Assembly: GCF_017982655.1 (NCBI RefSeq)
Contig: NZ_JABXYX010000024.1
Coordinates: 1-64,000, forward strand
Reading direction: 5' to 3'
DNA length: 64,000 nucleotides
Source: Brasilonema sp. CT11
GTDB taxonomy: Bacteria > Cyanobacteriota > Cyanobacteriia > Cyanobacteriales > Nostocaceae
Shown: one piece after another, positions 47,309-58,045 of the stretch
Numbering within the stretch: the first letter of the stretch is position 1
Layout of the letters: each line of letters opens with the position of its first letter
Position numbers and translations under genes: made by a program
The notes under the pieces: model-generated
What the model saw: the letters and a program-made list of their open reading frames with translations, nothing else
Databases searched by the model: none
Told to the model about the DNA's origin: nothing

Positions 47309-47623
47309 ATGACCTCAAAATCATTGAACTACAAGATCTCAGAGTCGTCGATAGTAGTAGCTGCTGTAGAGCAGATATCGTCAGATCTTGGTGGCGAAGC
47401 AGTCATTCTGAATCTCAGATCAGGAGTCTATCACGGACTCAATGAACTAGGGGCAAGAATTTGGAATTTAATTCAGCAACCCAAGGCAGTGAAAGATATT
47501 AAACACAAGCTTCTGGAAGAATATGAAGTAGAACCAGAAGTTTGCATGAGAGATATTTTGGCACTGCTGGAAGAATTGAAAGCTGTAGATCTGGTTGAAG
47601 TTAACAATGAAACGGTTGCGTAA
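47309..47623 (+). CDS. PqqD-like RiPP recognition protein (lasso peptide B1/E)
   Basis: This 104-residue PqqD-family protein is the RiPP recognition element of a split lasso maturation protease. GGEAVILNLRSGVYHGLNEL and GARIWNLIQQPKAVKDIKHK match the PqqD winged-helix pattern, followed by ILALLEELKAVDLVEV. Its job in lasso pathways is to bind the precursor leader and hand it to the B2 protease and the cyclase. ATG 47309 was chosen; a TTG at 47270 is also open. It is the first gene of the operon and overlaps the B2 gene by 17 bases. Confidence 0.88.
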   Translation: MTSKSLNYKISESSIVVAAVEQISSDLGGEAVILNLRSGVYHGLNELGARIWNLIQQPKAVKDIKHKLLEEYEVEPEVCMRDILALLEELKAVDLVEVNNETVA

Positions 47624-48062
47624 CTTTCTGAAACTTTCTGGGAGCGATCGCACCCTTTTAGCAATCACCTTTATCTTGCTAGGAGCAATTAGGTTGGGGC
47701 TGTTTTTTCTCGCCTTTCAGAATTTATTAAAGCTCTTGCAAAAGATAAATAAGCAAAATATTCGTTTCCCATTTGAGATTCAGAAAAGTCAAATTTCTGT
47801 AGGCAAGATTGTTTGGGCTGTTAACGTAGCAACACGCTATATGCCTGGTGGGGCAAAGTGTCTGGCTCGCGCCTTGACGACTCAATTTTTCATGAACCGC
47901 TATCATTACTCCTCTCAACTACGTATAGGTGTTGCTAAAGAACAGGGAGGACAATTAGAGGCTCATGCTTGGATTGAGTATCAGGGATGGGTTGCGATCG
48001 GCAATCTTCCGGATCTCTCACGCTTTATACCACTGCCATCTCTCGAAGGAGTTAAGCTATGA
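47607..48062 (+). CDS. Lasso peptide leader protease B2 (transglutaminase-like)
   Basis: A 151-residue protein of the lasso peptide biosynthesis B2 family. The cysteine-protease triad is visible: Cys in MPGGAKCLARALTTQFFM (about residue 93), His in LEAHAWIEYQGW (about 131) and the Asp in GNLPDLSRFIPL. It removes the leader once B1 presents it. An N-terminal hydrophobic stretch (about 14-38) may touch the membrane. It overlaps the PqqD-like gene upstream, and its TGA overlaps the cyclase start (ATGA), so all three are translationally coupled. Confidence 0.92.
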   Translation: MKRLRNFLKLSGSDRTLLAITFILLGAIRLGLFFLAFQNLLKLLQKINKQNIRFPFEIQKSQISVGKIVWAVNVATRYMPGGAKCLARALTTQFFMNRYHYSSQLRIGVAKEQGGQLEAHAWIEYQGWVAIGNLPDLSRFIPLPSLEGVKL

Positions 48063-50086
48063 GCGGAATTATGGGAATTTACTACCTTGATAATCGCCCT
48101 GTAGATCGAGAAGATTTGGGACAGATGGTCGATATTCTTGCTCACCGGGGACCTGATGGTGCAGACATCTGGGTTGACGGATCTGTCGGTTTAGGGCATC
48201 GAATGCTGTGGACAACACCGGAATCTCTGCTAGAAAAACTGCCATTGATTAAGCAGACAGGTGATTTAGTCATTACTGCAGATTGTCGAATAGATAACCG
48301 GGATGAACTTATTCATGTGTTACAATTTGATGAGCGCCCATCTGAAAAAATCACGGATAGCCAGTTAATATTGGCGGCTTACGAAAAATGGGGTGAGTTT
48401 TGTCCAGAACAACTTTTAGGGGACTTTGCGTTTGCGATTTGGGATGTAAAAAACCAAACTCTTTTCTGTGCGCGAGACCACATGGGCATTAAACCCTTCT
48501 ACTATCATCATCAGGCAGATCACGTCTTTGTTTTTGGTTCTGAGATTAAAGCACTTTTGTGTTTGCAGGAGATACCACACCAACTCAACGAAGTAAAAGT
48601 TGCAGATTATTTGGCAGTGATGCTCGAAGATAAAACCAGCACATTTTATCAAGGCATTTTCCGGCTTCCCCCTGCCTCCAGCATGACAGTGAGTTGCAAG
48701 GGAATACAAATACAGTCCTACTGGGCACTTGACCCAAAGCGCGAGCTACGGCTCAATTCTGATGAAGAGTACGCTAAAGCTTTGTGTGAAATCTTTACCA
48801 AGGCGGTGCATTGCCGTCTGCGTAGCGCTTTCCCCATCGGCTCCCATCTCAGTGGCGGGTTGGACTCTTCCTCGGTTACCTGCATGGCGCGACAACTTCT
48901 CCAACAAGAAAATCGTCCCTTACACACATTTTCCAACATTTTTGACACTGTTACCCAATGTGACGAGCGTTCTTTTATCAACCCTGTACTTGCCCAAGGT
49001 GGGATGATTCCTCACTATGTGCACGCAGACCAAATGGGTCCTTTGTCTGACCTAGACCAGATTTTTTCATACCACGAAGAGGTATTCTTTGGTCCTACCC
49101 ATTTTCTTCTTTGGGGTCCTAACCGTGCTGCTCATAGCGAGGGTATCCGAATTGTCCTGAGCGGTTTTGACGGCGATACGACTCTGTCGCATGGTGAGGG
49201 GTATCTTATTGAACTGGCACACCAAGGACAGTGGGCAAGCTTCGCAACAGAAGCTAATGAGATTTCTAAACTTCTCGGTAATTCACCCCTAGATATTCTT
49301 CAAGAATATGGTCTGACCTACCTGCAAGAGTTGGCACGTAAATCGAACTGGGTGGCTTTTGCCAAAGCAGCTAACGAAATATCTAAACATTTCGATATTT
49401 CACAGCGACATATTCTTTTGCATCATGGTCTAAAACCTTTACTCCCAAAGCTTCTGCGGCAAGCTTGGCGACGGCTACGCGGACGCAGCGAACCGATACC
49501 TGACATTGACTGGCTGTTTAACCCTAGCTTTGCTAAGAAAATTGGTTTGAAAAAACGTATTCAAGCTCTAAATGAATCCCAGTCGAACCCAGTTGTTACA
49601 GAAAGAGAACACCATTGGCGCGTTATGACTTCAGGTTTGGTAACGTATGCAATGGAAACCTTAGACAAATCGGCAGCAGCGTTTTCTATCGAAGCTCGTC
49701 ATCCTTTTATGGATAAACGATTGCTGGAGTTTTGTCTATCTCTACCTCCAGAGCAAAAGCTTAACCAGGGATGGTCTCGCTTGGTTATGCGCCGTGCCAT
49801 GAAGAATATTCTTCCTGAGCAAGTGCAGTGGCGACGAGGAAAATCCAACATGTCTCCTAGTTTTCTATACGGGCTACTAACACTTGACCGAAAGCTTGTG
49901 GATAATGTGATGCAAAATCAGCTAGAGAGCATTGCCGCCTATGTGGATACAAACGCCTTGCGTAAAGCTTATGAACAATTGATATCTGCAAGTAACTTTA
50001 AGTCTCTTGAAAGATCTATAGCATTAGATATCTGGAAAGTAGTCATGTTGACTCTTTGGCTAAATCGTACCCAATTAAAGCAGTAG
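48059..50086 (+). CDS. Lasso peptide macrolactam cyclase (asparagine synthetase-like)
   Basis: A 675-residue homologue of class B asparagine synthetase. The N-terminal glutaminase-like domain begins MSGIMGIYYLDNRPVDRED; the normal catalytic Cys2 is replaced by serine, so it should not hydrolyse glutamine. The C-terminal ATP-binding domain has GSHLSGGLDSSSVTCMARQL (about 258-277), the PP-loop used to adenylate an Asp or Glu side chain. In lasso pathways this enzyme joins that carboxyl to the N-terminal amine of the core. Overlap with the B2 gene and the precursor gene just downstream fit the assignment. Confidence 0.9.
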   Translation: MSGIMGIYYLDNRPVDREDLGQMVDILAHRGPDGADIWVDGSVGLGHRMLWTTPESLLEKLPLIKQTGDLVITADCRIDNRDELIHVLQFDERPSEKITDSQLILAAYEKWGEFCPEQLLGDFAFAIWDVKNQTLFCARDHMGIKPFYYHHQADHVFVFGSEIKALLCLQEIPHQLNEVKVADYLAVMLEDKTSTFYQGIFRLPPASSMTVSCKGIQIQSYWALDPKRELRLNSDEEYAKALCEIFTKAVHCRLRSAFPIGSHLSGGLDSSSVTCMARQLLQQENRPLHTFSNIFDTVTQCDERSFINPVLAQGGMIPHYVHADQMGPLSDLDQIFSYHEEVFFGPTHFLLWGPNRAAHSEGIRIVLSGFDGDTTLSHGEGYLIELAHQGQWASFATEANEISKLLGNSPLDILQEYGLTYLQELARKSNWVAFAKAANEISKHFDISQRHILLHHGLKPLLPKLLRQAWRRLRGRSEPIPDIDWLFNPSFAKKIGLKKRIQALNESQSNPVVTEREHHWRVMTSGLVTYAMETLDKSAAAFSIEARHPFMDKRLLEFCLSLPPEQKLNQGWSRLVMRRAMKNILPEQVQWRRGKSNMSPSFLYGLLTLDRKLVDNVMQNQLESIAAYVDTNALRKAYEQLISASNFKSLERSIALDIWKVVMLTLWLNRTQLKQ

Positions 50087-50190
50087 AACCAGTTGCATCA
50101 GCCGATTATATCGAATTTTTATCTGTACTGATATTAAAAATGGGTGGGTCTACCAACAAAACGCAACAAATCACACAAGGAGTTTTCACA

Positions 50191-50373
50191 GTGAAGAAAT
50201 CTTATGAAGCACCAAAGCTCAACAACTATGGCACAGTGGCTAAGATGACCGAATACTTTGGCATCTCAAGCACAGATACGTTATACGGTCCAACCGGAGC
50301 TCCCGCTGGCAATAGTACAGGCACAATCAACGCTTGTGCTACAGCGAATCAGCAAAACTGTCTCCCTAAATAA
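50191..50373 (+). CDS. Lasso-type RiPP precursor peptide
   Basis: The 60-residue peptide starts MKKSYEAPKLNNYGTVAKMT, matching the lasso leader pattern YxxPxLxxxGxxxxxT. The conserved threonine (Thr20) usually sits at position -2, which would put cleavage after Glu21. The core is then residues 22-60, YFGISSTD..., with Asp29 at core position 8 as the ring acceptor. The core would have 39 residues and two cysteines (residues 49 and 57), far longer than the usual 15-25. GTG 50191 lies 8 bases after AGGAG (50178-50182); an ATG at 50140 would add 17 residues. It follows the cyclase gene by about 100 bases. Confidence 0.85.
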   Translation: MKKSYEAPKLNNYGTVAKMTEYFGISSTDTLYGPTGAPAGNSTGTINACATANQQNCLPK

Positions 50374-50407
50374 GGAATGTCTAGACTCAATAGTCATTAG
50401 GCATCAG

Positions 50408-50485
50408 CCACTAGAAAGTGGTAGTCCTAAATCTGTCACGACACACCGTAAACATATTTAGGGTGTGCTGAGTGAAAAGCACTCA
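50408..50485 (+). promoter_or_regulatory. Stem-loops between precursor and kinase genes
   Basis: Three hairpins follow the precursor: CCACT/AGTGG (50408-50421), an 11-bp stem with one mismatch (50442-50468) and TGAGTG/CACTCA (50469-50485). None has a strong T-run. In some lasso operons a stem-loop after the precursor stabilises its mRNA or partly terminates, so that precursor exceeds enzymes. That role is a guess here. Confidence 0.4.
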
Positions 50486-50544
50486 CTGTTCCTGACACCT
50501 TTAGGGCTACCTACACACTCATGATGTAGTCAAACAATAATAAA

Positions 50545-51453
50545 GTGTTTACTTACTCTGCCTACAATCTCTGTATTCACTCCCAGTTGCCCTTACCGGA
50601 ACTAATGGCTGCACAGGAGGGTGACAAAACTGGTCAATCGCCAGATGTTGTCGTCCATGTGCGTGAGTTAAGTTCCTCGGAGCTTTCGGCAGTAAATGGA
50701 GGAAACTTGTTTCTGGGTGATTCCTTTCTGGGAAACCTAGAGGTCGGTAAGTTCTTAGTACAGAATGGACGGCAGATTGTAATTGAACCCGTTCCAGGAG
50801 TTGAGGAAGCGGTGATTCGTTCCCTCATCCTGGGACCTTCCTTGTCTGTATTGCTCCGACAGCTAGGATTTCTGGTACTGCACGCCAGTTGTGTCGCCAT
50901 TGATGGTACTACAATTGCCTTTTTGGGTCATTCTGGATGGGGAAAATCAACGCTGGCTGAAGTCTTCCATACCAAAGGCTACAGTATCCTCACGGATGAT
51001 TTGATGGCTATCAAAATGGATACTGACCAAGCCATCGTATTTCCTGGATTTCCCCAGGTGAAATTATGGTCTGATGCAGCCACTTCTTTGGGGCATACTC
51101 CGGAAAATTTGCCGTTACTACACTCAATGACGGAAAAGCTGGTTTACCGCTTTTCCGAAGGCTTTTGCCAAAGACCCCTGCCGTTAAAGCGTCTTTACGT
51201 GCTGGACAAAGGAACTCAACATAGCATCGAACCGTTGCATCCTGCAAATGCCTTCATGGAGTTGGTGCGCTATTCCCACGCTGTCAATTTATTACAAACT
51301 CCAGACTTTACCAAGACACATTTTGAGCAGTGCCAGAAACTAGTTAAGCACGTATCTGTGTGCCGACTGCGGCGGCAATTTTCTTTGGACGCTCTTCCGG
51401 ATTTAGTGAAGTTGATCGAGGAAGATATTAAAGAGGGTGTTTATACTAGCTGA
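50545..51453 (+). CDS. HPr kinase-like protein of the lasso cluster
   Basis: A 302-residue homologue of the HprK C-terminal kinase domain. The P-loop is AFLGHSGWGKSTLAEVFHTK (about residues 124-143), followed by YSILTDDLMAIKM, which holds the two aspartates of the family. HprK-like enzymes in other lasso clusters phosphorylate the C-terminal serine of the precursor. The precursor here ends in lysine, with serines and threonines only inside, so the target residue must differ or the protein has another role. GTG start at 50545; no clear ribosome site. Confidence 0.86.
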   Translation: MFTYSAYNLCIHSQLPLPELMAAQEGDKTGQSPDVVVHVRELSSSELSAVNGGNLFLGDSFLGNLEVGKFLVQNGRQIVIEPVPGVEEAVIRSLILGPSLSVLLRQLGFLVLHASCVAIDGTTIAFLGHSGWGKSTLAEVFHTKGYSILTDDLMAIKMDTDQAIVFPGFPQVKLWSDAATSLGHTPENLPLLHSMTEKLVYRFSEGFCQRPLPLKRLYVLDKGTQHSIEPLHPANAFMELVRYSHAVNLLQTPDFTKTHFEQCQKLVKHVSVCRLRRQFSLDALPDLVKLIEEDIKEGVYTS

Positions 51454-51545
51454 ATTGTCAAAAATAACTTTAATCTAACTTTAGATTCAACACTCGCAGC
51501 AGCTATTTAACCTCTTAATATTTTGTTTTGGTATAAAATTAAACT

Positions 51546-53363
51546 ATGCAAGCAGGCAAAATATTAAAACAAAAACTCCAGAATACATTACGCTTTTTGC
51601 CTGCATTGCGCTTAGTTTGGCAAAGCAGTCCCAGTTGGACGATCGCTCGCGTCGTCCTCTTGGTCATCCAAGGTATATTACCTTTATTGTCAATCTATCT
51701 AGCGAAACTTATCGTCGATACAGTAGCTACTAGCCTCACCGCCGCTGACAAAGCAGCAGCCTTTGGCCAGGTATTATTCTTAATTGTCCTAGCAGGTGTA
51801 GTCACCCTGGTCACTACGCTTTGCAACTCCTTAACAGAACTGGTCAATACCGCCCACTCGCAGCGGGTGAGTGACTATATGCAGGGTGTTATCCAGGCTA
51901 AATCAATAGAAGCTGATCTAGAATACTACGAAAATCCCCAATACTACGATACCCTACAACGCGCTCAACAAGAAGCTCCTTACCGCCCTCCCCAAATCCT
52001 GAATCGTTTGGCACAGGTGGGACAAAATAGTATTTCCTTGCTAGCGATGGTTGGCTTACTGCTGTCACTTTATTGGGGAATTGCCTTAATGTTATTTGTT
52101 GCTGGTCTTCCCTCAATGCTGGTACGGGTAAAATACACTCGTGTCTTGTACCGTTGGCAGCGTAAAATAACACCTCAAGAACGGCAGTCCATGTACTTAG
52201 CTTGGATGCTGACATCAGACCAGTTCGCTAAAGAAATTCGCTTGTTTAATTTAGGCTCCTACTTCAGTCAATGGTATCTGCGTATCCGACGGCAAATATA
52301 TAAAGAAAGCCTAGTCATTTTCACCGCACGTTCTCTGGCTAACTTTGCTGCTCAAGCTGTAGCAGCAATTTTAATGTTTGCTGTCCTTGCCTTCATCGTC
52401 AATCAAGCTATCCAAGGTGTTCTCAAACTAGGGGATCTGGTCTTGTATTATCAAGCATTGCAACGTGGACAGAACGATATTAAAGGTCTATTGAGTAGTG
52501 TGTCTGGTTTGTATGAAGACAACCTATTTCTCGCTAACCTTTATGAATTCCTTGACCTGAAACCCAAATTGGTTGAGCCTTTACATCCTGTGCCTATCCC
52601 CCGACCCATGCAAAGTGGCATTGTTTTTAATCATGTTAGTTTCCAATACTCTACCACTACCCGTCAGGCACTTAAGGATATTAACTTGATTATTCGACCA
52701 GGGGAAGTCGTAGCGTTGGTGGGAGAAAACGGTTCTGGTAAAACTAGCCTCATTAAACTCTTATGCAGATTATACGCTCCAACCTCTGGAAGTATCACTA
52801 TTGATGGCATTGACCTCAGCCAATTTAAAATTGCAGAATTACGTCAAGAAATTAGCGTGATTTTTCAAGACTATGCTAAGTACCACTTCACAGCGCAAGA
52901 AAACATTTGGTTAGGTAACATCGACTTACCACCGCACCGGGAAAGCATAATTGCTGCTGCCCGTCGTTCTGGTGCTGATGATGTTATTACTCATTTACCC
53001 CAAGGTTATGACACCATCTTGGGCAAGTTGTTTGAGCGAGGAGAAGAACTTAGCATTGGTCAGTGGCAAAAAATAGCATTGGCAAGGGCATTTCTCCGAG
53101 ACTCCCAGGTGATTGTCTTGGATGAACCCACCAGTGCGATGGACCCCAAGGCTGAATACGAGGTGTTTGAAAAGTTCCGCCAACTGATCCAAAATCAAGC
53201 TGCCATTCTGATTAGCCATCGCTTATCAACTGTCAAAATGGCGGATCGCATTTATGTGATGACAAATGGTTCAATTGTCGAAAGTGGAACCCATGACGAA
53301 TTAATGCAGTTGGGCGCTACCTATGCCCACTTGTTTGAAACCCAAGCCCAACAATATAGATGA
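51546..53363 (+). CDS. ABC transporter, permease-ATPase fusion (lasso exporter)
   Basis: The 605-residue half-transporter has about six membrane segments in residues 1-330 and a C-terminal ATPase. The motifs are Walker A VGENGSGKTSLIK (about 391), signature ELSIGQWQKIALARA (about 500), Walker B VIVLDEPTSAMD (about 520) and the switch histidine ISHRLS. It should export the mature lasso peptide and give self-immunity. There is no peptidase C39 domain, consistent with a separate B2 protease. It ends 7 bases before the phosphoribosyltransferase-PqqD gene. Confidence 0.92.
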   Translation: MQAGKILKQKLQNTLRFLPALRLVWQSSPSWTIARVVLLVIQGILPLLSIYLAKLIVDTVATSLTAADKAAAFGQVLFLIVLAGVVTLVTTLCNSLTELVNTAHSQRVSDYMQGVIQAKSIEADLEYYENPQYYDTLQRAQQEAPYRPPQILNRLAQVGQNSISLLAMVGLLLSLYWGIALMLFVAGLPSMLVRVKYTRVLYRWQRKITPQERQSMYLAWMLTSDQFAKEIRLFNLGSYFSQWYLRIRRQIYKESLVIFTARSLANFAAQAVAAILMFAVLAFIVNQAIQGVLKLGDLVLYYQALQRGQNDIKGLLSSVSGLYEDNLFLANLYEFLDLKPKLVEPLHPVPIPRPMQSGIVFNHVSFQYSTTTRQALKDINLIIRPGEVVALVGENGSGKTSLIKLLCRLYAPTSGSITIDGIDLSQFKIAELRQEISVIFQDYAKYHFTAQENIWLGNIDLPPHRESIIAAARRSGADDVITHLPQGYDTILGKLFERGEELSIGQWQKIALARAFLRDSQVIVLDEPTSAMDPKAEYEVFEKFRQLIQNQAAILISHRLSTVKMADRIYVMTNGSIVESGTHDELMQLGATYAHLFETQAQQYR

Positions 53364-53370
53364 AAACTCT

Positions 53371-54600
53371 ATGTGGCAAGAAACCCTCTCTCAACTTAGT
53401 GAAGCAGAATCACCACTTTCTAAGTCATTACCGAAAATCTATAGCATTCCCATTGCTGCCGAAGCCCTAGCTCATTACAGTCGTGAACTTCAAATAGCTG
53501 AACCTGCTGAGGCATTGTGTAGGTTAACTCAAGCCATTGCCTACAGTCCTAGTTGGGCAGAAATGCCTCCAAGCGTGTTGATTAGCCGACCGACTCCCCA
53601 ACCTGTACTAGCGGTGTTGGGCTGCTTTGATGAAGTTGCTAAATTCCGAATTTGGACACAGTTACAAAGCTTGAATCGGGATCTAGCTCGGATGCGCTAT
53701 GTTAGCTATGGTCAAGCTGAGCTAGACTGCCAGCGCTTGGCTTGTCAGTTAATTGCTCGCTTTGGTCATCAGGAACTGAAACGCTTTCACTTCACCGCCA
53801 TTCCTCGCGGGGGACTGATTGTACTGGGTATACTGGCTTATTGTTTAGGACTCACGAGCGAGCAATTACAGCCACCGAAATCGCCGGATGTACCTTGGGT
53901 AGTAGTGGATGACTGCGTGTATACAGGATCGCGATTCTACGGCTTTGTGCAATCCCACTCGCAGCAGAAGGTCATTTTTGCCCATCTGTACTCTCATCCT
54001 GAGTTGCGTTCGCGCATCATAACTTGTGAACCTCGCGTCCTTGCTTGTGTGAGTGCACATGATCTTTATGACTACGCACCTGAAGAGTTGGGCGATGATT
54101 ACCAAGCTTGGCAGAAACACTCGCTTTTCAAGCTTAGCGGTTTCCGCTATTGGGTTGGAAAAACTGACCATGTATGTTTCAGTTGGAATGAGCCAGATCG
54201 CTTTTTTTGGAACTCTATTACGGAAAAAATAGAAGGTTCCTGGTTGCTTCTTCCAAAAGACGTTTGCTTGAAAAATCAATTTAAGGCTGCTTCCAAGCTT
54301 CTGAATGTACAAATTCAGCCTGAGGCAACCGGATCCCTCAAGCCTGCAGCACAGGTTGTCTTTGGTCAGTATGAGGAACAAATTGTGATTGGTAACCTTG
54401 AAACACAGCAAAGCTTTGGACTAACTGATTTGGCTGCTGATATTTGGTTAGCTATTGTTGAGCACGGCAATTTGGAAGAGGTCATAACAGTGTTATTGAG
54501 AATCTACGACATTAATGAAACCACGCTACGCTCTGATGTGGATATTTTTATAGATCAGTTGTACGCCGAGGGTTTGCTAATTAAATTGAATGATCGCTAA
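53371..54600 (+). CDS. Phosphoribosyltransferase-like domain fused to a PqqD-like RRE
   Basis: A 409-residue two-domain protein. Residues about 90-250 resemble a type I phosphoribosyltransferase: FHFTAIPRGGLIVLGILAY followed by the PRPP-binding WVVVDDCVYTGSRFYGF (about 175-191). Residues about 328-408 form a second PqqD-like domain (NLETQQSFGLTDLAADIWLA then DIFIDQLYAEGLLIKL), which would bind a leader peptide. I do not know this fusion from described lasso pathways. It could modify the precursor with a ribose phosphate or nucleotide, or act as a scaffold. ATG 53371 lies 7 bases after the transporter stop. Confidence 0.8.
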   Translation: MWQETLSQLSEAESPLSKSLPKIYSIPIAAEALAHYSRELQIAEPAEALCRLTQAIAYSPSWAEMPPSVLISRPTPQPVLAVLGCFDEVAKFRIWTQLQSLNRDLARMRYVSYGQAELDCQRLACQLIARFGHQELKRFHFTAIPRGGLIVLGILAYCLGLTSEQLQPPKSPDVPWVVVDDCVYTGSRFYGFVQSHSQQKVIFAHLYSHPELRSRIITCEPRVLACVSAHDLYDYAPEELGDDYQAWQKHSLFKLSGFRYWVGKTDHVCFSWNEPDRFFWNSITEKIEGSWLLLPKDVCLKNQFKAASKLLNVQIQPEATGSLKPAAQVVFGQYEEQIVIGNLETQQSFGLTDLAADIWLAIVEHGNLEEVITVLLRIYDINETTLRSDVDIFIDQLYAEGLLIKLNDR

Positions 54601-54703
54601 TTCAAAATTATGCTCCTATCTTTACCCTTAAGCAAGCTTATACCCAAATATTGGCAATATTAAATAAAAGCCAAAAAGAAGAAACATTTATTACAACTTA
54701 TTA

Positions 54704-55828
54704 ATGAAAATGCAAACTTTACCAAGACCATATATCAGGAATTTCGAGACAAATATTCGCCCCGAAATAGAGCTACTTCTTTGTTGCGTCCGCCCACAGG
54801 TTGATGATGCTATTAGCGATCGCATCAAAGCTTTGGTTAAAGAAAACATTGACTGGGAATACCTAATTCAAACAGCACATGGACACGGTGTCATACCCTT
54901 AATATACACCCGCCTCAATGCTATCTGCCCAAAAGCTTTGCCCGACTCTGCTTTGAACCAACTACATAGTCTTTTTAGTGCGATCACTAGACGTAACTTG
55001 TTTTTGACTAGAGAACTCGTCAAACTCCTAGAACTTTTGAAGGAGCAAGGGATTATAGCAGTACCTTACAAAGGGCCAGTTTTAGCTACCTTAATATACG
55101 GTAATGTAGCTCTACGGCAATTCGGTGATTTAGATATTATTGTCGAAGTGCAAGATATTTTTGCAGTCAAGAAACTGCTGCTTGATCAAGGATATCGACC
55201 CAATGTTGAAATGACTCATGCAGAAGAAATTGCTTATCTGCAAGCTAAAACTGAGCATACCTATGACTTTATTCACGATGACAAAGGAATTTTTTTAGAA
55301 ATTCATTGGCGAATTGCACCAAAGTACATCACTTCCATCGAACCTAAACACTTGTGGCAAGACCTGGAACCATTCTCATTGGCTGGCACAACTATATCCT
55401 ACCTGCCCCTAGAAGACTGGCTACCAATTTTATGCGTACATGGGTCTAGACATATGTGGGAAAGGCTATCATGGCTGTGCGATATTGCTACACTCCTTCA
55501 CAAACACCCAGATCTAAATTGGGAAAAAGTCGTTAAACAAGCTACCATCTTTGGCTGTAGACGGATACTGTTTTTGGGGCTTTTCTTGGCACATGATCTT
55601 TTAGGAGTTGTCTTGCCAACAGAAATTTGGCAGCAGGTGAAAGCTGAACCGATGGTAAGTGCGATCGCCCCCCGAGTATACAATCAACTTTTTGATCAAG
55701 TCAGGACTTCCGATAGATTTATGGGCAGAACTCTCTACCATATTCAGGTGAGGGAACGCTTCCAAGATAAAGTTCTTTACATCCAATCTTTCTTCCACTG
55801 GTTAAGAAATAAGAATGCCTCAGTTTAA
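54704..55828 (+). CDS. Nucleotidyltransferase family protein (PF14907-type)
   Basis: The 374-residue protein belongs to the uncharacterised nucleotidyltransferase family often found with lasso clusters. The pol-beta-like motif is VPYKGPVLATLIYGNVAL then RQFGDLDIIVEVQD, with two catalytic-type aspartates (about 141-143). Later EIHWRIAPKYI and SRHMWERLSWLCDIATLLHK are family landmarks. It might add a nucleotide to the peptide or to another pathway protein. It follows the PRT-PqqD gene by about 100 bases and is probably the last gene of the operon. Confidence 0.87.
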   Translation: MKMQTLPRPYIRNFETNIRPEIELLLCCVRPQVDDAISDRIKALVKENIDWEYLIQTAHGHGVIPLIYTRLNAICPKALPDSALNQLHSLFSAITRRNLFLTRELVKLLELLKEQGIIAVPYKGPVLATLIYGNVALRQFGDLDIIVEVQDIFAVKKLLLDQGYRPNVEMTHAEEIAYLQAKTEHTYDFIHDDKGIFLEIHWRIAPKYITSIEPKHLWQDLEPFSLAGTTISYLPLEDWLPILCVHGSRHMWERLSWLCDIATLLHKHPDLNWEKVVKQATIFGCRRILFLGLFLAHDLLGVVLPTEIWQQVKAEPMVSAIAPRVYNQLFDQVRTSDRFMGRTLYHIQVRERFQDKVLYIQSFFHWLRNKNASV

Positions 55829-55972: not shown

Positions 55973-58045
55973 ATGAAACGACGATTTTTTTTGCTAAGTG
56001 CAGGTACATTAACATTCTCACAACTGCTTGTTAACTGTGCTGGCAATAACCAGGCAACCCCAATTAACCAGTCGCCAAAAGAGTCTAATGGTAAGCGAGA
56101 GCTTAATAAGTTTCGCAAGAACTTGAATCATTTTCCTAATGAAAATATTTCTTATCCAGCTGATGCTGGAGTGATTGACGTCATGAAGGACTATGGCGCT
56201 CGCGGAGATGGAAGGACAGATGACACTGCCGCCATTCAATCTGCTATTAGCGCTGCTGTTGGAACGAAAAGGATAGTATATTTTCCAAAAGGAATATATT
56301 TGGTTTCAAACACTATTTCTGCAAAAGATACTAATGGCGTTTGGCGCTGCCGCCTAATTTTACAAGGATACAACAAGCAAAATACTATTATAAAATTGAA
56401 AGATAACTGTGCAGGTTTTACTGACTCAAAGAACCCAAAAGATGTTTTACAGACTGGGAGTGATAATCCGATTGCTCAAGACGGTGCTCAGGCAGGAGGA
56501 GGTAATCAAGCATTCAACAACTCTGTTTTGAATTTAACTATTGATATTGGAATAGGTAATATTGGTGCAAGAGGGCTAGAGTATCTTGCAAATAATCAAG
56601 GGATTTTAGAAAATGTCACTATCAAATCCTCAGATCCTAAAATGTTGGGAGATACAGGACTTGCTATGATTCGCTTTGGTCCTGGTCCATGCTTGATTAA
56701 AAATGTCATAATAATTGGATTTAATTACGGGATATATGCTTTTGGGATGGAGTATGGATTGACTTTTGAAAATATCGCAATTGAAGGACAGCGAATAGCA
56801 GGTATATATAATAATGGACAAGTTATGGCTGTCCGGCGATTAATTAGCTACAACGAAGGGACTATTCCAGTCATTAAGCTTGATGGCGCAGGTTTTCTAG
56901 TTATGGTAGATTCTGAATTAATTTGTTCAGGAAATACTAAAAATTCAGTTGCTATTGATAGTGTGGGTGATAATTCAGAATTTTTCTTAAGAAATGTCAA
57001 AACCTCTGGTTACCGAGTTGTAAGCATAACAAAAAGGAGACAGCCTGAGAAGACAGAAAATCCTATGAGCGAGTATTCTTCACTACCTGTAAAACAACTG
57101 TTCTCCTCAACTCGAAAAAGCTTGAATCTTCAAGTAAAAGAAACACCAAATTACTACAATAACAAGTTCTCAGATTGGGCTTTTGTTGGTCTTCCAACAG
57201 GAGGAGATGACACCTCCAATATCCAAGCAGCACTAAATTCTGGTAAACCTGTTGTCTACTTTAAGTCAGGGGTTGGTTATTTTATAACAACAAGATTAGT
57301 GATTCCATCGACAGTCAAGAAAATTGTTGGTATGGAAGCAACTATACTGATTTCTAAAAACAACACTTACTTTAGAGACAAGAGTAAGCCAAAAGCGCTA
57401 TGGGAAGTCGTTGATGGTAGTGATTTGTTAGTCATTGAAGCTCTAGATTGCACTATTTTTAATACCAATACTGAAACAGCGGGTGGTTATTTTATGCACA
57501 ATAAATCCGCTAGAAGCATGGTGCTTAAAAGGATTCCTGCGGGATACGGTGCTTACAAAAATGAAAGGCCAGCATCAGGTGTACCACTTGGCGAGCTTTA
57601 TGTAGAGGACTATTCTGGAACTATCAGAATTAACGTTCCTCAAAAAGTTTGGGTGAGACAATTTAACCCAGAGAACTTTGAAGATGGGTACAACGCCAAG
57701 GTCACAAACAATGGTGGAGATCTCTGGATTCTTGGTTTCAAAATAGAAGGAGCAGGTTCCGCTATTGAAACAAATAACGGTGGTCGCACCGAAGTACTAG
57801 GCGGGGAAATATACGCATCAGGATATGTTCCTCCTGCTGGAAAAGCTTGTTTCCTTGTCAATAATTCTTCAGTCAGCTTTTCTGTTGGCACTTCGGGTGT
57901 AAATCAGTATCCAGTCATTGTCAGAGAAACAAGAGGCAAAGTGACTAAGGATTTGAATCATCGTGATTTGCCATCTAGAGGTGGTCCCTCTGTTGCCTTA
58001 CCATTGTACTCAGGGCAAGTAACACGAAAAAGAGGGATAAAATAA
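55973..58045 (+). CDS. Pectate lyase-fold (parallel beta-helix) lipoprotein
   Basis: The 690-residue protein begins MKRRFFLLSAGTLTFSQLLV and has a lipobox LLVNC at about 18-22, so it should be exported and lipidated. A Pectate_lyase_3 segment follows: DYGARGDGRTDDTAAIQSAI (about 71-90), then YFPKGIYLVSNTI. A second, weaker copy begins about residue 400 (PTGGDDTSNIQAALNSGKPV then VVYFKSGVGYFI). Such proteins bind, cleave or modify polysaccharides. It lies between the lasso genes and the second polysaccharide region, so it may act on the exopolysaccharide. Confidence 0.87.
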   Translation: MKRRFFLLSAGTLTFSQLLVNCAGNNQATPINQSPKESNGKRELNKFRKNLNHFPNENISYPADAGVIDVMKDYGARGDGRTDDTAAIQSAISAAVGTKRIVYFPKGIYLVSNTISAKDTNGVWRCRLILQGYNKQNTIIKLKDNCAGFTDSKNPKDVLQTGSDNPIAQDGAQAGGGNQAFNNSVLNLTIDIGIGNIGARGLEYLANNQGILENVTIKSSDPKMLGDTGLAMIRFGPGPCLIKNVIIIGFNYGIYAFGMEYGLTFENIAIEGQRIAGIYNNGQVMAVRRLISYNEGTIPVIKLDGAGFLVMVDSELICSGNTKNSVAIDSVGDNSEFFLRNVKTSGYRVVSITKRRQPEKTENPMSEYSSLPVKQLFSSTRKSLNLQVKETPNYYNNKFSDWAFVGLPTGGDDTSNIQAALNSGKPVVYFKSGVGYFITTRLVIPSTVKKIVGMEATILISKNNTYFRDKSKPKALWEVVDGSDLLVIEALDCTIFNTNTETAGGYFMHNKSARSMVLKRIPAGYGAYKNERPASGVPLGELYVEDYSGTIRINVPQKVWVRQFNPENFEDGYNAKVTNNGGDLWILGFKIEGAGSAIETNNGGRTEVLGGEIYASGYVPPAGKACFLVNNSSVSFSVGTSGVNQYPVIVRETRGKVTKDLNHRDLPSRGGPSVALPLYSGQVTRKRGIK

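Follow-up and report, generated by a model that had tools for sequence, protein, structure and literature searches.

Organization of a lasso peptide operon in Brasilonema sp. CT11

Within a 64,000-nucleotide stretch of the cyanobacterium Brasilonema sp. CT11 (contig NZ_JABXYX010000024.1 of an 8.8-Mb draft genome), referred to here as the window, we analyzed a lasso peptide gene cluster in which one gene, designated F, encodes a phosphoribosyltransferase (PRTase) fused to a RiPP (ribosomally synthesized and posttranslationally modified peptide) recognition element (RRE). A preliminary description had placed eight consecutive plus-strand genes at 47309 to 55828, with the first three coupled by overlaps. 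All eight were confirmed; B1 and B2 overlap by 17 nucleotides (nt), and B2 and C overlap by 4 nt (ATGA). E values are given for family matches unless bits are stated.

47309..47623, + strand: B1, discrete lasso-type RRE (PqqD-like), 104 amino acids (aa) (NF033536, 5.6e-22; PF05402 PqqD, 1.3e-19)
47607..48062, + strand: B2, transglutaminase-like leader peptidase (NF033537, 5.3e-31, over the cut-off; PF13471, 3.7e-20)
48059..50086, + strand: C, Asn-synthetase-like macrolactam cyclase, 675 aa (NF033535, 1068 bits)
50191..50373, + strand: A, precursor (NF033528 lasso_cyano, 3.9e-7, slightly below the cut-off)
50545..51453, + strand: K, HprK-like peptide kinase, 302 aa, GTG start (PF07475 Hpr_kinase_C, 5.9e-6, below the gathering cut-off)
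51546..53363, + strand: D, MsbA-type ABC exporter, 605 aa (PF00005, 6.6e-34; MsbA-type families)
53371..54600, + strand: F, PRTase-RRE fusion, 409 aa (AlphaFold2 model, alignments, PqqD match)
54704..55828, + strand: N, PF14907 nucleotidyltransferase-fold enzyme (PsmN-like), 374 aa (PF14907, 3.5e-63)

The core set had been called standard for lasso peptides, and RRE, protease, and cyclase are indeed found together. Matches of B2, C, and N exceeded curated cut-offs, and those of the PqqD parts of B1 and F exceeded Pfam's; the precursor, kinase, and PRTase parts fell below theirs in a consistent gene context. The B1 match to NF033536 lay just below that family's cut-off and above the Pfam cut-off for PqqD. 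B2, which starts at ATG 47607, shows Cys/His motifs, and C scored 1068 bits against the cyanobacterial lasso cyclase family NF033535, for which the cut-off is 525.

The most likely start of the precursor is GTG 50191, preceded by a Shine-Dalgarno-like AAGGAG; the alternative is ATG 50140 in the same frame. Its leader, MKKSYEAPKLNNYGTVAKMTE, carries a YxxP motif (YEAP) and Thr at position -2, and its core, YFGISSTDTLYGPTGAPAGNSTGTINACATANQQNCLPK, has Asp at position 8. The encoded core comprises 39 residues, with a long tail containing two Cys and a final Lys. Its calculated monoisotopic neutral mass once the macrolactam is formed would be 3885.79, or 3883.78 if a disulfide is also present. The same gene order recurs across Nostocales, and the arrangement is therefore not due to chance. 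The locus is almost certainly a complete lasso peptide operon.

Conservation of the operon in related genomes

A cyclase search was run over 59 related genomes, and 17 kb around the 19 best matches other than the window were compared; these loci are close homologues by construction, and the counts are biased accordingly. B1 and B2 were both kept in 18 of the 19 clusters. K and D followed the cyclase in every one (19/19), N was present in 16/19, and F was found in the two closest clusters only. Since K, D, and N are this constant and F is confined to the nearest relatives, K, D, and N are regular members of the cyanobacterial lasso operon, with F as an accessory gene. The preliminary description had named as one test that the downstream genes travel with the lasso core; they do, F occurring almost only in lasso clusters. 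Cyanobacterial lasso clusters of the NF033535/NF033528 kind (e.g., that of Cyanocohniella LLY [PMC9332814]) share the B1-B2-C-A core and precursor type with the window, and most of those examined differ from it in having no F.

K and N as a known tailoring pair

The HprK-like Walker A motif of K (GKST) and the following DD, with the catalytic Asp, are kept in at least 93% of 39 homologues, and the DxD motif of N is conserved. An HprK-like kinase with a PF14907 enzyme is the known tailoring pair of paeninodin/pseudomycoidin-type lasso peptides; PsmK (poly)phosphorylates a Ser, and hexose addition requires PsmN (PMC9266682, PMC13381572, PMC7533575). For paeninodin and pseudomycoidin, the kinase acceptor is the C-terminal Ser (PMC9266682). 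In the linear polyphosphorylated peptide (LPP) system, the kinase LppK acts on Ser3 of the core and does not accept Thr, and LppN was inactive alone, leading its authors to propose a missing partner (PMC13381572).

The nearest known system is the pseudomycoidin cluster of Bacillus pseudomycoides, which resembles the window in its lasso core, HprK-like kinase (PsmK), and nucleotidyltransferase-annotated PsmN. It differs in its C-terminal Ser acceptor, where the window precursor has an internal Ser/Thr followed by a Cys-bearing extension, and no PRTase-RRE fusion is reported for it. The paeninodin cluster (PadeK) is likewise similar in combining an HprK-like peptide kinase with a lasso core and differs in its C-terminal Ser acceptor and in having no F. 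The LPP system (PMC13381572) shares an RRE that reads a leader motif, an HprK-like kinase, an NTP-transferase, and an MsbA-like exporter; unlike the window, it has no cyclase and no PRTase, and its leader peptidase is signal peptidase-like.

The tailoring genes had been described as unfamiliar. This does not hold for K and N, which form a known pair, and stands for F, of which no description was found in the literature. The analysis gives good support to the proposal that these genes specify a modified family of lasso peptides whose tailoring is phosphate based. Of the phosphate- or nucleotide-based modifications suggested at the time, the former agrees with the homologues of K and N; nucleotidyl shifts are not the first expectation for N, because its homologue PsmN is required for hexose addition. 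We consider it probable that the product is phosphorylated.

An internal Ser/Thr as the candidate kinase site

We compared the window precursor with 35 others from Cyanobacteria and Halomonadaceae (n = 36), each cut after Thr-x. An acidic residue was present at core position 8, 9, or 10 in 36/36. All 36 tails contained G-S or G-T (22.3 expected from shuffled tails, maximum of 30 in 2000 shuffles) and 33 contained GS (14.4 expected, maximum of 24); the precursors are related, and these values measure conservation, not independent origins. The motif often reads G-S-[ILV]-[DN], and its conserved form is G-S/T-x-[D/N].

50323..50325, + strand: core Thr24 within the tail motif G-S/T-x-[D/N], predicted kinase site (from the tail comparison)

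Ser was the last residue in only 4/36 precursors, and a C-terminal Ser was rejected as the general kinase site for precursors as encoded. The window precursor departs from the paeninodin type in ending in Lys, its conserved Ser/Thr being internal. The conserved internal G-S/T (Thr24 in the window precursor) is likely the best candidate for the target of K. This motif offers a concrete kinase site candidate in the little-studied cyanobacterial lasso peptides.

Alternatively, the tail past G-S/T might be trimmed before or after modification, so that K would act on the resulting C-terminal Ser or Thr and the two Cys would be part of a removed follower. The length and sequence past the motif do vary while G-S/T is conserved, and paeninodin-type kinases act on a C-terminal Ser (PMC9266682). 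On the other hand, the operon encodes no second protease, and the paired Cys are kept in 10/10 cyanobacterial precursors examined from F-containing clusters. We regard such trimming as rather improbable and retain the internal G-S/T of the intact tail as the preferred site.

The spacer between the precursor and kinase genes is predicted to be highly structured.

50374..50544, + strand: A-K intergenic RNA structure (minimum free energy, -54.7; z, -4.6 versus shuffled sequences)

Spacers of F-containing relatives gave z values of -4.8 to -6.8 in four of five loci tested (L036, L037, L057, and L062; locus labels are our own) and -1.5 in the fifth (L060). The long hairpins probably form a terminator or attenuator of the precursor mRNA that would keep this mRNA in excess.

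Domain architecture of F

Comparison with homologues favored a start for F at 53371 over 53323. Family searches returned PqqD (1.6e-10) and, below the cut-off, Pribosyltran (0.0065); the latter call is confirmed, since fold comparison and alignment to xanthine-guanine PRTase (XGPRT) agree with it. The AlphaFold2 model (pLDDT 83, pTM 0.79) has three parts.

53425..53685, + strand: N-terminal alpha/beta domain, residues 19 to 105, or 22 to 105 in the full-length model (separate model, pLDDT 82)
53686..54288, + strand: type I PRTase domain, residues 106 to 306, XGPRT/HGXPRT-like (Foldseek, structure comparison)
53803..53814, + strand: PRGG pyrophosphate loop, residues 145 to 148, invariant (alignments)
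53899..53934, + strand: phosphoribosyl pyrophosphate (PRPP)-binding motif VVVDDCVYTGSR, residues 177 to 188 (aligns with XGPRT VIDDLVDTGGT)
54337..54588, + strand (residues 323 to 406): C-terminal lasso-type RRE, residues about 321 to 408 (TbiB1 match)

The N-terminal domain had no Foldseek match at an E value of ≤0.001 in PDB or in the viral BFVD, a result that does not in itself show a novel fold. The PRTase domain has a type I fold (Foldseek to XGPRT, 1.6e-5; VIA Z score of 12.2 to HGXPRT), and PRTase-fold regulators such as PyrR are among its structural neighbors. Sequence searches against solved structures gave a convincing match for the RRE part only and no relative for the PRTase part. 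In alignment with E. coli Gpt (28% identity over 72 columns), PRGG falls on the SRGG pyrophosphate loop and VVDDCVYTGSR falls on VIDDLVDTGGT; the aligned F proteins all retain both PRPP-binding acids and the Gly. F thus shares the type I fold, the RGG loop, and the DD..[ST]G PRPP motif with Gpt and Sulfolobus HGXPRT and differs from them in its extra N-terminal domain, its C-terminal RRE, and the loss of the catalytic Asp: the position of Gpt Asp92 is occupied by Tyr, Phe, or Leu in F proteins. PRTases are textbook nucleotide-salvage enzymes, and Asp92 of XGPRT serves purine activation, a function that would be dispensable with another acceptor. Because the ligand motifs are invariant but Asp92 is replaced, F likely binds PRPP and is unlikely to use a purine as acceptor.

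The RRE of F is of the lasso type. It matched the TbiB1 profile (E value of 4.6e-9) and aligned structurally with TbiB1 (Z score of 14.3) and TfuB1 (13.6), both of which are lasso B1 proteins solved with bound leader. A housekeeping role for F was rejected: its whole-protein homologues lie almost only in lasso clusters, and other cyanobacterial matches cover the RRE part alone.

Distribution of F in two phyla

F was found in 22 genomes from two phyla, with a lasso cyclase adjoining it in 18 (9 Nostocaceae and 9 Halomonadaceae). It occurs in 11 of 218 Nostocaceae genomes, among them members of Rhizonema, Calothrix, Westiellopsis, Scytonema, Nostoc, Hassallia, and Brasilonema; the cyclase adjoins F in 9 of these 11, and the other two are short contigs showing D-F-N. 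In Halomonadaceae, 9 of 151 genomes carry F, all with an adjoining cyclase (9/9), as in the cluster L082, which has the order N-D-C-A-F-K-B2-B1. The idea that F is widespread in Pseudomonadota was rejected, since samples of 369 and 398 genomes yielded 1 and 2 positives, all of them Halomonadaceae already found. A tblastn search of PLSDB detected no plasmid-borne F.

One Halomonadaceae genome (G491) has F split into two overlapping reading frames (L088, 8968-10175), likely a pseudogene or a sequencing frameshift. Billgrantia ethanolica (L064 and L070) has C-A-F-K between truA-like and trpF-like genes (named by sequence reading), with N, D, B1, and B2 beyond the fimV-like/truA-like pair; the layout looks like an insertion of lasso genes on either side of housekeeping genes. 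Three cyanobacteria, Rhizonema PD37, Calothrix NIES-4105, and a Scytonema metagenome-assembled genome (L055, L057, and L060), carry two lasso clusters or parts of clusters each, arranged head to tail, of which only one includes F. In L053 and L057, a lasso type without F has a gene for a cupin-like (JmjC-like) protein of ~400 aa (family by sequence reading) between C and K, and its short cores end in ...GITDITS or ...GITDVTS.

In a maximum-likelihood tree of 37 cyclases, the nine cyanobacterial cyclases with F formed one group with a single cyclase lacking it (L038; support, 80/99). Presence of F needs three changes on this tree, compared with 12.6 with shuffled labels, a pattern consistent with a single cyanobacterial gain and a single loss (L038); the tree gives no direction of change, and long branches meet at its Halomonadaceae end. 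The patchy distribution, the apparent loss in the cyanobacterial subclade, and the split copy in G491 would be expected were F carried along in one lasso lineage as a decaying or neutral gene with no effect on the product. We consider this very improbable, as F proteins of Cyanobacteria and Halomonadaceae, at 31 to 36% identity, have kept the active-site motifs and the RRE.

In another cyanobacterial family, two genomes of the genus g83 contain a K-F pair without lasso genes (L035 and L105, the latter on a contig of only 6.3 kb); in the first, a separate contig (L068) bears a B1-B2-C-A-K cluster. On account of these pairs, F is tied more closely to the kinase than to ring formation. Pairing with K alone would also suit a PRPP- or nucleotide-sensing or scaffold protein, whose RRE presents the leader to K and ties phosphorylation to metabolic state, and both the missing XGPRT catalytic Asp and the PyrR-type regulators among the structural neighbors point the same way. 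We nevertheless judge a sensor or scaffold unlikely: the PRGG and DDC..[ST]G.R loops vary little or not at all, in line with selection for PRPP/pyrophosphate chemistry, and the Asp would be needed for purines only.

In cyanobacteria, F usually neighbors N. It might therefore make a small-molecule substrate for N, either a nucleotide or a sugar-phosphate donor, which is the kind of partner proposed for LppN after its inactivity alone (PMC13381572). This, too, seems improbable to us, since the RRE of F points to the peptide as its substrate, Nostoc TH1S01 and the first Calothrix cluster have F but no N, and most N-bearing clusters lack F.

A possible role for F in tailoring of the lasso peptide

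Our preferred reading, which we regard as close to an even call, is that the operon is of the paeninodin/pseudomycoidin modified type and that F is a leader-guided tailoring enzyme that uses PRPP. Judging from their families, B1 would bind the YxxP leader, B2 would cut the leader off after ...MTE, C would link Tyr1 and Asp8, closing a ring of 8 residues from which a long tail bearing two Cys extends, and D would export the product. K, like its homologues, would add one or more phosphates to the peptide, and the comparison of tails suggests the internal G-S/T-x-[D/N] (Thr24), rather than a C-terminal Ser, as its target. N may then act on the phosphate added by K; in the case of its homologue PsmN, the enzyme is required for hexose addition. 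The least certain steps are those of F, which may dock through its own RRE on the same YxxP leader as B1 and may use PRPP to place a phosphoribosyl group on the peptide, with the phosphate as one possible acceptor. Because K is the only partner gene of F at two loci, the target of F most likely lies at or beside the site of K. We propose only tentatively that F is a peptide phosphoribosyltransferase. It is an equally tentative suggestion that F founds an RRE-guided, PRPP-dependent class of RiPP tailoring enzymes that, with an HprK-like kinase, installs (phospho)ribosyl groups in Cyanobacteria and Halomonadaceae.

Several observations weigh against this reading. With the catalytic Asp replaced, binding of PRPP or a nucleotide by F might not lead to transfer, or F might use unusual chemistry. 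The window precursor has G-T where its relatives have G-S, and LppK rejects Thr in place of Ser (PMC13381572). In the stretch read of one Halomonadaceae cluster (L086), F and C are present and K is not. Finally, most lasso clusters with K and N lack F, which thus is not needed for the chemistry of these two enzymes.

As far as found, novelty is confined to F, with K, D, and N already familiar. Literature searches for a PRTase or PRPP with lasso peptides, or for a PRTase with an RRE, returned nothing relevant, which is weak evidence given thin coverage of subscription journals. If our reading is true, F may decorate a lasso peptide in a way so far undescribed, and a PRTase that carries a leader-binding domain and is found almost exclusively in the lasso clusters of two phyla would mark PRPP as a donor that has so far gone unused for peptide natural products. 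F also bears on the question raised in the literature for LppN (PMC13381572), namely, which partner or substrate PF14907-type enzymes use after the kinase.

Genes adjoining the operon

After the operon, at 55973-58045 of the window on the same strand, lies a gene for a lipoprotein-like protein of pectate-lyase/epimerase fold (PF12708). Three glycosyltransferase genes lie farther along on the opposite strand. All of these are probably unrelated to the lasso genes.

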